This document shows positions 4,415-9,193 of a stretch of DNA of 64,000 nt, piece by piece. Source of the DNA: a virus; the IMG/VR virus record IMGVR_UViG_3300037507_000754, positions 1 through 64,000 of that record; one strand, 5' to 3'. Position numbers and translations under genes: made by a program. Position 1 is the first letter of the stretch; every line of letters begins with the position of its first letter. The notes below the pieces were generated by a model. That model was not told where the DNA came from and searched no databases. It worked only from the letters and a program-made list of their open reading frames with translations.

Positions 4415-4666
4415 TTAAAAAGTCTCAGCCTGTTCGCCGTAGCCGTAGCCGTGGCCGTGGCCGTAGCCGTAGCCGTAGCCGTAGCCGTGGCCGTCGCCGT
4501 CGCCGTGGCCGTTGCCGTCGCCGTCGCCGTAGCCGTAGCCGTAGCCGTCGCCGTGGCTGTAGCCGTTGCCGTCGCCGTCGCCGTTGCCGTAGCCGTAGCC
4601 GTTGCCGTCGCCGTCGCCGTCGCCGTGCATAGCGGCTTCAGCCATGTACCAGAAGCCGTGGTTCAC
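4415..4666 (-). CDS. 83-aa Gly-X repeat protein (long paralogue)
   Basis: The GTG start at 4664-4666 has AGGAGAG upstream. An ATG in another frame at this point is followed at once by TGA, which favours the GTG. The head (NHGFWYMAEAAM) leads into 32 Gly-X dipeptides where X is Tyr 12, Asp 10, His 6 and Asn 4 times; one Gly is Ser. The tail is GEQAETF. All X codons are NAC. The composition suggests a disordered or metal-binding, silk-like protein; function unknown. Its plus-strand reading as an Ala-Val repeat is a shadow. Confidence 0.72.
   Translation of the reverse strand: MNHGFWYMAEAAMHGDGDGDGNGYGYGNGDGDGNGYSHGDGYGYGYGDGDGNGHGDGDGHGYGYGYGYGHGHGYGYGEQAETF
4436..4627 (-). repeat. GGCNAC hexamer array, 32 units
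   Basis: 192 bases of perfect 6-base periodicity on the coding strand. The first base of each second codon takes all four values, while the other five bases are constant apart from one GGC to AGC change. A microsatellite prone to expansion or contraction. Confidence 0.9.
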
Positions 4667-7295: not shown

Positions 7296-7607
7296 TCAGG
7301 CGAAATACCGTCCGACGATGACTTGATCTTCGTCAGCGACGAAGCGGAACAGCACGCCGCTGAAGAACGTCTCCGACACGATGCCGTCCCACCCGCCCGC
7401 GGCGAGCTTGAACAGGGGTCCCGGAGGCAGGCGGGACTGCTCCAACACCTGCGTGTCATACACGTCGTACCAGTGGCCCTTGTACTGCACGAACCGGGGG
7501 CAGTACCTCTCGTCCTCGTTGACGTAGTCGAAGTCAGCCCGGACGTTGTCCGGTAGCTCTGCGAGGCACGCCATCTGGCGCTGGTGATTGTTAGTGATGA
7601 TGTTCAC
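7296..7607 (-). CDS. hypothetical protein, first gene after the structured leader (103 aa)
   Basis: Unrecognised. Two in-frame GTG codons are possible (7616 and 7607). The AGGAG site abuts the first, so the second, with 8-base spacing (MNIITNNHQRQMACLAELP), is chosen. The C-terminal half is beta-like (GIVSETFFSGVLFRFVADEDQVIVGRYF). It is the promoter-proximal gene of the leftward operon, so its expression would be the first to respond to the leader. Confidence 0.72.
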   Translation of the reverse strand: MNIITNNHQRQMACLAELPDNVRADFDYVNEDERYCPRFVQYKGHWYDVYDTQVLEQSRLPPGPLFKLAAGGWDGIVSETFFSGVLFRFVADEDQVIVGRYFA

Positions 7608-7685
7608 GTTACTCACTCCTATACTGGGTTTGATGCACGGGGGCCGAAGCCACCGCGTCGCAGCACATGCTGCCTAGATCGCTCG

Positions 7686-7733
7686 TTGCACCGGCTCCGC
7701 CTCTAGGCGTTGCACCGGCTCCGCCTCTAGGCG
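7686..7733. repeat. 24-bp tandem repeat, two copies
   Basis: Two identical units (7686-7709 and 7710-7733) beginning TTGCACCGGCTCCGCC, followed by a partial third (TTGCAC). They lie within the loop of the 13-bp inverted repeat in the leader. Confidence 0.9.
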
Positions 7734-8012
7734 TTGCACGCTGGGCGTGCACCCACCGGACGATTTGCGCGAAGCGATCTAGGCAGGGGGCGAGTGATTT
7801 CCACCCCCTGCGAGACCTGCCGTTTAAGGTCGGCAACCCGCCACGTGGGATTTACGTGGGCCTTCCGATGCACGTTGCCGTGCATCACCTCCACAGGATT
7901 CTTACCTGTCAGAGATCGCAGGGATCAACCACCCGCCCGGGTGAAAGATAGATATGCACCTCCTTCGGTGCGTTGGGCATGTGTTGATGTACTAGCGGCG
8001 TAAGCCGCCGCC

Positions 8013-8027
8013 CGATGTATAACATCG
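8013..8027 (-). promoter_or_regulatory. boxB-like hairpin
   Basis: Minus-strand CGATG-TTATA-CATCG has a 5-bp stem and 5-base loop, 14 bases after boxA. This is the geometry of a lambdoid nut-site boxB, though the loop is not GNRA-like. It also contains TGTTATACA, close to the operator palindromes at 9845 and 10810, so an operator is the alternative. Confidence 0.45.
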
Positions 8028-8041
8028 AGCGCAGAGATAAA

Positions 8042-8053
8042 TTGTTAAAGAGC
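8042..8053 (-). promoter_or_regulatory. boxA antitermination element
   Basis: The minus strand reads CGCTCTTTAACAATTTATC around here. It contains the full boxA consensus CGCTCTTTA and looks like the boxA of enterobacterial rrn leaders. BoxA RNA binds NusB-S10 and supports processive antitermination. It would lie about 30-45 bases into the transcript from the promoter at 8092-8120. Confidence 0.75.
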
Positions 8054-8091
8054 GTGTCGTGTGTTTGAGCTGATCTCCCACCGACATATCT

Positions 8092-8120
8092 ATTATATAT
8101 CAATCTCGTCCTTATGTCAA
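8092..8120 (-). promoter_or_regulatory. consensus sigma70 promoter of the leftward operon
   Basis: Minus strand TTGACA (8115-8120), a 17-base spacer, TATAAT (8092-8097): a perfect match to the sigma70 consensus. Transcription should start near 8085 and run left through the boxA leader into the MoxR/VWA operon. The -35 box contains the stop codon of the gene at 8117-9193. The strength suggests immediate early expression by host polymerase. Confidence 0.92.
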
Positions 8121-9193
8121 GCATTTCGTTCGTCAATAGCGTCCTCCAATTCGTCGGTCTTAGTGGTGGTGACGTTGGTGTCGGCAGGGGTCGGGGCTGT
8201 GGTCGGTGTCGGTGTGGTGTTGGTGGTGTGTACCTCAGCCCAGCGCAGCCAGTGTGCATGCTGGTCCTCCGTCAGCTTCGAAGCGTGCACCCTCCCTTCA
8301 GTCACCTTCAGCCCCAACGCTGACATCAACATCACGTTGCCCGACTCGTAGGGCAAGGTCTCCCCTCCGGGGGAACGGATGTCAATGCGCCCCACCTTCG
8401 CCATGCGTGGGTCTTTCTTGTTGACGTATGCGTCATAGATCAGCACCTCGCCCGTCACTGGGCACCGCTCAGGGTAGATCAGCTCGCCCTCGTAACGCAT
8501 GAGTGCGTCAGCCGCTGAGAACTTCCCGGCCAACTTCGGCGTGCCCACAGGCGACCGCAACCACAACTGATAGGAGTGTGTACGCGCCAGCATCGTCATC
8601 CTCACGACGTGCTTCCACCTCTCATCATCTTTGTAGTCAGCACGCGCTTTGGGTACCGGTGCAACCTCCGGCGCACCGAGCGACTTCACAATGACGGTCT
8701 CACTCACGTCGTACATCATGGCAAGCACGCCTATCGCTTCCTTCGGCACCGGGGCATCCGCAGGCAAGCCCAACTTGCCCATCATGCGCTCAGCACTCGA
8801 TCGAATGGCACGCTTGCGGATGCCCAACAGGACGTTGCTCTTGACGGCGTAGGGGCCTGAGCCCATCGCTTGCAGGTCGTTGCCCAGGGCTTCGAACACG
8901 GGCAGGTGGATCATCTCGTTGAACACGTCAGCACGCTCAGGCGTGTCCGCAGGCGGCAGGGCGTTGCCCTCAGCGACGTAGGCACGCAGCGCCTCAATGG
9001 CGAAGCCAGGGACGGCGTACTGGTAGCTGACGAAGTACCAGACTTGATCCCCTCCGGTCCCTCCGAGGCCGTAGGCAGGCACGGGCTTTCCCCACACGGC
9101 GCGGGGCATGTGGGCGTTGTGCCGGAAGAGTGGCACCCCCTTGGGAGAGAGGTAGACGCGGCTGAGGAGCGAGGAGGGGAAGATGAGGTCCAT
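8117..9193 (-). CDS. hypothetical protein (358 aa)
   Basis: Unrecognised. A globular body of about 310 residues with alternating helices and strands, then a Thr/Pro-rich linker (HTTNTTPTPTTAPTPADTNVTTT) and a short acidic end (DELEDAIDERNA). The linker resembles those that attach a C-terminal peptide. The ATG at 9193 has a GGAG site about 9 bases upstream. Its own promoter candidate lies at 9226-9254. The single-gene unit ends inside the next promoter, so it may be expressed separately from the operon. No catalytic motif is evident. Confidence 0.85.
   Translation of the reverse strand: MDLIFPSSLLSRVYLSPKGVPLFRHNAHMPRAVWGKPVPAYGLGGTGGDQVWYFVSYQYAVPGFAIEALRAYVAEGNALPPADTPERADVFNEMIHLPVFEALGNDLQAMGSGPYAVKSNVLLGIRKRAIRSSAERMMGKLGLPADAPVPKEAIGVLAMMYDVSETVIVKSLGAPEVAPVPKARADYKDDERWKHVVRMTMLARTHSYQLWLRSPVGTPKLAGKFSAADALMRYEGELIYPERCPVTGEVLIYDAYVNKKDPRMAKVGRIDIRSPGGETLPYESGNVMLMSALGLKVTEGRVHASKLTEDQHAHWLRWAEVHTTNTTPTPTTAPTPADTNVTTTKTDELEDAIDERNA

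Follow-up and report, generated by a model that had tools for sequence, protein, structure and literature searches.

The minus strand of the viral DNA analysed here (the window, a stretch of 64,000 nucleotides equal to positions 1-64,000 of a 65,366-base IMG/VR record) carries at 8120-7608 a promoter, a boxB-like hairpin and a boxA, followed by a non-coding RNA of approx. 430 nt that abuts the first gene of a leftward cluster. Comparison with related phages indicates that this leader is a real, conserved and previously unclassified modular RNA with an rRNA-type boxA, the structure of which is well supported. On balance, we lean towards an antitermination leader that works in rRNA style through Nus factors and is joined to a structured, modular phage RNA of a new class. 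This class of large phage RNA has covariation behind it, and with the antitermination signal of host rRNA it also carries a hint as to how it is made.

Organization of the leader region

The leader region is flanked by a 358-aa gene (8117-9193, minus strand) and by the small gene with which the leftward cluster begins; a PHROG search gave no match for the latter. Also encoded on the leftward strand are an ATPase, a member of a protein family with the annotation HNH endonuclease and, at the record's far end, a primase, a helicase and a DNA polymerase; terminase, portal and structural genes are on the rightward strand. Should the genome be circularly permuted, the promoter would head a leftward block of more than 20 kb. 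The following features were recognized:

8092-8120, minus strand: sigma-70 promoter TTGACA-17-TATAAT, matching the consensus at 12/12 positions
8055-8086, minus strand: boxB-like hairpin with the stem UGUCG/CGACA, directly upstream of boxA
8036-8053, minus strand: boxA GCTCTTTAACAATTTATC, identical to that of the E. coli rrn leader
7924-8035, minus strand: 5' module of the RNA, with a sequence specific to the window subtype; other modules take its place in relatives
7806-7923, minus strand: central domain specific to the window subtype (the window and near-identical relatives), with helix P1 (7916-7923/7806-7813) closing it
7889-7914, minus strand: D hairpin with an invariant GGUAAGA loop, supported by covariation
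7867-7886, minus strand: GCAA-tetraloop hairpin (7886-7879/7874-7867), window subtype only
7815-7834, minus strand: possible H-type pseudoknot (UGCCG/CGGCA with ACC/GGU), recognized by eye from the sequence, window subtype only
7783-7811, minus strand: T hairpin GCAGGGGG/CCCCCUGC (7811-7804/7790-7783), present in nearly all homologues with little covariation
7670-7786, minus strand: Y helix of 14 bp (7773-7786/7670-7683) with a variable apical part, supported by covariation
7660-7673, minus strand: Z hairpin GCAGCAUGUGCUGC, close upstream of the ribosome-binding site of the first gene
7296-7607, minus strand: first gene of the leftward cluster, with a likely GTG start at 7607 and AGGAG at 7620-7616

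Three repeats or complementarities were noticed in passing. A tandem repeat with a unit like GTTGCACCGGCTCCGCCTCTAGGC (plus strand) lies at 7686-7770, within the apical portion of the Y helix; 38 nt of it are missing in the relative L004. A 10-bp complementarity, TGATGCACGG/CCGTGCATCA, links one arm of the GCAA hairpin (7878-7887) to a stretch shortly before the first ribosome-binding site (7631-7640). Further along the window, a long low-complexity simple-sequence array at 4415-4666 gives rise to an ORF with GYGDGDG-type repeats on the minus strand.

Promoter, boxB-like hairpin and boxA

The boxA at 8053-8036 matches the E. coli rRNA-leader boxA at 18 of 18 positions and, when up to three mismatches are allowed, is the only occurrence in the window (0.01 expected). 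A 43-nt E. coli rRNA-leader query containing these 18 bases matches E. coli genomes at a median of seven places each; one of these was inspected and lies approx. 100 nt upstream of an annotated 16S rRNA. The window boxA also fits the published gamma-proteobacterial consensus GYTCTTTAANA (PMC5725501); the host's own rrn boxA may differ from it. Moreover, a hairpin preceding an unpaired boxA reproduces the boxB-boxA order of rrn (cf. PMC10250234). In rRNA operons, boxB, boxA and boxC follow in this order, with boxC 18-19 nt after boxA, and boxA alone is necessary and sufficient for complex formation (PMC10250234); a search for boxC (GUGUG) in the sequence 3' of the window boxA found none.

The arrangement therefore resembles an rRNA operon leader in its strong sigma-70 promoter, hairpin and boxA followed by an untranslated structured RNA, but differs from it in that protein genes lie downstream, boxC is lacking and the structured RNA is not rRNA. 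It shares with the nut sites of lambdoid phages (boxA-boxB, with the N protein) a boxA in an early phage leader and a presumed use of host Nus factors; here, however, the hairpin precedes boxA, as in rrn, and no N-like protein was noticed. None of the three upstream elements was described in the first-pass annotation, which had nonetheless proposed an antitermination RNA among other possibilities on the grounds of competing helices. The boxA supports that proposal, whereas the competing helices do not.

The TTGACAT promoter is retained in all 19 leaders (the window and the 18 homologues described below). Most homologues have a GUCG/CGAC-type stem before boxA, with the variants AUCGG/CCGAU and GGUCG/CGACC. 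The consensus GYTCTTTAANA is exact in 13/19 leaders, the window included, and boxA deviates from it in L015, L016, L022, L024, L026 and L161. As these six include members of two close pairs with one intact and one changed copy, some phages may be able to do without boxA. In the closely related leaders L016 and L017 (GCTCTTGAACA versus GCTCTTTAACA), as in L026 and L162 (GCTCTTAAACA versus GCTCTTTAACA), one boxA is intact and that of the partner is point-changed; from their sequences, both pairs are possible natural boxA mutants.

A modular family of homologous leaders

Homologues were sought through the neighbouring 358-aa protein, the MoxR-type ATPase of the cluster and DNA patterns. Eighteen homologous leaders were found in metagenomic phage contigs, the ATPase identity of the phages reaching as low as 62%, and the element is carried by the ATPase loci read that have sufficient upstream DNA. 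Measured from the end of the promoter to Z, the RNA body ranges from 395 to 605 nt. Its make-up is modular, with blocks that have been exchanged, inserted into one another or lost from phage to phage; the parts that stay constant across the family are the D hairpin with its GGUAAGA loop and a 3' T-Y-Z junction directly before the first gene. In L005 (7238-7480) and L168 (10740-10930), a large extra RNA module is nested in a hairpin of the family RNA (GUGACUCGGAUGGAA...UUCGGCAAUCAC).

The first gene itself is not conserved. Among 16 phages, the first downstream ORFs (gene starts being called mechanically) fall into eight unrelated groups; thus, the conserved function of the leader is not tied to one gene.

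No relatives were found in bacterial genomes, and DNA searches gave no credible homologues in named phages. Matches to Mycobacterium and Microbacterium DNA were set aside, being 23-39 nt long and located inside other genes, and the pattern matches L148, L153, L154, L164 and L165 were discarded as false on reading. By terminase, the nearest named phages are Pelagibacter phage HTVC023P (47% identity) and DSL-LC04 (45%); the latter was examined and lacks the element.

Folding, coding potential and covariation

The evidence for a structured, conserved and unclassified leader RNA is strong at the level of sequence. The 343-nt region examined contains five helices of at least 8 bp, against a mean of 0.89 in 300 dinucleotide shuffles, none of which reached five; its folding z-score is -6.0, and three other members of the family gave -5.2, -3.3 and -3.7. 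The region does not look coding: within the element, indels of 1 nt and 38 nt separate the window from L004, and the relatives keep to no fixed length; these frame-breaking indels and length changes rule out a protein-coding region.

Covariation of the paired segments in homologous leaders, suggested in the first-pass annotation as a check on its structured leader, was found in the Y helix, the D hairpin and the B hairpin (a 5' hairpin of the family that is absent from the window subtype). In particular, among 13 distinct sequences the Y helix is 98.5% paired and both sides have changed at 8 of 15 aligned pairs. Its covariation score is 0.483, a value reached in 0/500 shuffles, compared with 0.233 after shuffling and at most 0.115 when the arms are slid. 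Since the sequences are related, the shuffle counts are not to be read as probabilities; the slide control leaves relatedness intact and nevertheless abolishes most of the signal. In the D hairpin (12 distinct sequences, 93% paired), both sides have changed at 7 of 10 pairs and the score is 0.605 versus 0.295 in controls; in the B hairpin (six sequences, 100% paired), they have done so at 6 of 8 pairs. The arms of Y and B were excised by means of anchor motifs rather than by blind alignment. Sequence comparison thus proves a conserved structure for the leader family. The T hairpin is conserved but nearly invariant, so that it is supported by conservation and not by covariation. P1 is confined to the window subtype and identical in L004, and for this reason neither it nor the central domain of that subtype has covariation support; a scan of the viral collection for further members of this subtype, in which P1 covariation could be assessed, found none.

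The competing helices

The individual pairings listed in the first-pass annotation can all be read directly from the minus strand. P1 (7916-7923/7806-7813) and T (7783-7790/7804-7811) are perfect Watson-Crick matches of 8 bp each, as is the GCAA-capped hairpin at 7867-7886, and the candidate pseudoknot at 7815-7834 is visible in the sequence. The remaining helix, given as 13 bp at 7671-7683/7773-7785, is present but extends to 14 bp (7786-7773/7683-7670). An excess of mutually exclusive helices, which had been taken as the hallmark of a switch, is also real: three helix pairs share at least three bases, against a mean of 0.04 in 300 dinucleotide shuffles, none of which reached three. T and Y are nevertheless poor competitors, as they have only three nucleotides in common and folding predictions show them side by side in nearly all relatives lacking P1. 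The T hairpin is less strong in L026 and L169, and in L161 it is for the most part replaced.

The conflict between P1 and T, which share six bases, is more substantial. In silico, forced-state folding of the full-length RNA favours P1 by approx. 3 kcal/mol, T is favoured for transcripts ending at approx. 7760-7700, and the predicted pairing flips from P1 to T and back to P1 as the 3' end grows. In the window and its near-identical relatives, P1 together with an outer extension sequesters both arms of T. On paper, the pair is a genuine bistable design, confined to the window subtype. Such a design could act in cis, the two states being set by a ligand, a protein or the speed of transcription and altering expression of the gene starting at 7607. 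We regard this as improbable, because relatives are predicted to form T together with Y in the absence of such a competitor (except for a partial one in L161), a terminator is part of neither state and the first gene changes from phage to phage. In particular, a riboswitch or attenuator dedicated to one gene is unlikely, given that P1 is restricted to one subtype, that no intrinsic terminator was found in the interval from the structured RNA to the first gene and that this gene is not conserved; in metabolite riboswitches, by contrast, the downstream gene is conserved. Outside the window subtype, the proposed switch finds no support.

Comparison with known RNAs

The statement that the leader belongs to no recognized class is borne out by Rfam. 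Searches at the gathering score with the window and nine related loci gave no match, and E-value searches with the window, L018 and L020 gave only three chance matches (eukaryotic models; L018, opposite strand); a known RNA family is thus excluded by these searches. A likeness to RNase P RNA (GGUAAGA and ACAGA motifs) was dropped because no Rfam model matched.

Of the phage RNAs, GOLLD and ROOL, which form cages (PMC12286853), are similar in being large, ornate, modular and non-coding, and GOLLD likewise combines a conserved 3' part with a less conserved 5' part. The leader RNA differs from them in matching no Rfam model, in being shorter, in having no adjoining tRNAs and in its position at the head of an operon.

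The put RNA of phage HK022, an early-promoter leader element of approx. 70 nt made of adjacent stem-loops (PMC9378689), resembles the leader as a structured RNA in an early phage transcript, and T, Y and Z are also adjacent stem-loops. The leader might accordingly be of the put kind, binding to RNA polymerase itself and causing antitermination independently of Nus factors, with boxA being incidental. This is very improbable: put has two stem-loops, whereas T-Y-Z is larger and lies approx. 300 nt downstream of the promoter; boxA is kept in most members, but has no role in put, which needs no dedicated protein either; and blastn among GenBank phages matched the leader neither to HK022 nor to any other named phage. 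The two RNAs were compared by size, position and sequence rather than by structure.

A proposed mode of action

According to the antitermination reading, which we prefer, the leader would be laid out like the beginning of a bacterial rRNA operon and form the 5' end of the long leftward gene cluster of the phage. Transcription by host sigma-70 RNA polymerase would start near 8085, and the boxB-like hairpin and boxA would emerge in the nascent RNA. BoxA would then load the host Nus complex (NusB-S10 with NusA, NusG and SuhB) onto the polymerase, making it processive, and the polymerase would copy approx. 350 nt of untranslated, highly structured RNA before entering the gene cluster. The RNA would end in the compact T-Y-Z junction just before the first ribosome-binding site, and this junction is most likely a boundary or a processing site (e.g., for RNase III, acting at Y) between structured RNA and mRNA.

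A Nus mechanism is likely, and a leader with boxA would be of use to a long operon and equally to a structured RNA that is not translated. Promotion of rRNA folding is ascribed to the Nus complex (PMC5725501; PMC10250234), and at E. coli rRNA this, rather than blocking Rho, is held to be its main role (PMC5725501); assisted folding of the phage RNA is therefore as plausible as antitermination. Here, the Nus complex would serve a large RNA unrelated to rRNA, and a general role in RNA folding and processivity could be tested on a short, portable construct.

Stable RNA and phage tRNA arrays

The structured part might also matter more than the operon. It could be a stable RNA acting in trans, in the style of GOLLD and ROOL, with the operon as a mere vehicle for its transcription and with modules that diversify by binding or evading host factors. 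An ornate, modular RNA of several hundred nucleotides with a conserved structure and an unconserved first gene would fit this picture, for which phages offer precedents both in GOLLD/ROOL (PMC12286853) and in the abundant, unexplained ncRNA of approx. 800 nt in ICP1 (PMC7567579). The picture nevertheless seems rather unlikely, as the Rfam models of GOLLD and ROOL do not match, no tRNAs lie nearby (neither a tRNA nor a tmRNA was found in the window) and the RNA has no terminator of its own.

Combining this possibility with the preferred Nus reading, we tentatively suggest that this phage clade may use the host boxA/Nus machinery to make an rRNA-like, stable, modular and diversifying ncRNA that would accumulate and act in trans during infection. 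If so, rRNA-type boxA leaders would be used more widely in phages for stable RNAs, tRNA arrays among them. When IMG/VR was scanned for a promoter followed by boxA, at least 120 sites were returned, a count that proves little by itself, as tens are expected by chance on a rough estimate. Among the 120 matches listed, however, four promoter-boxA sites are followed at a distance of 17-27 nt by tRNA genes, on contigs with 3 to 20 tRNAs each. Judged by position, this placement does not look like chance; it suggests rRNA-style transcription of phage tRNA arrays and would link phage boxA to stable RNA as part of a wider phage strategy. The four sites are located in L044 (1064-1134, minus strand), L145 (from 171, plus strand), L114 (from 3705, plus strand) and L120, with 20, 19, 7 and 3 tRNAs, respectively, on the stretches examined.
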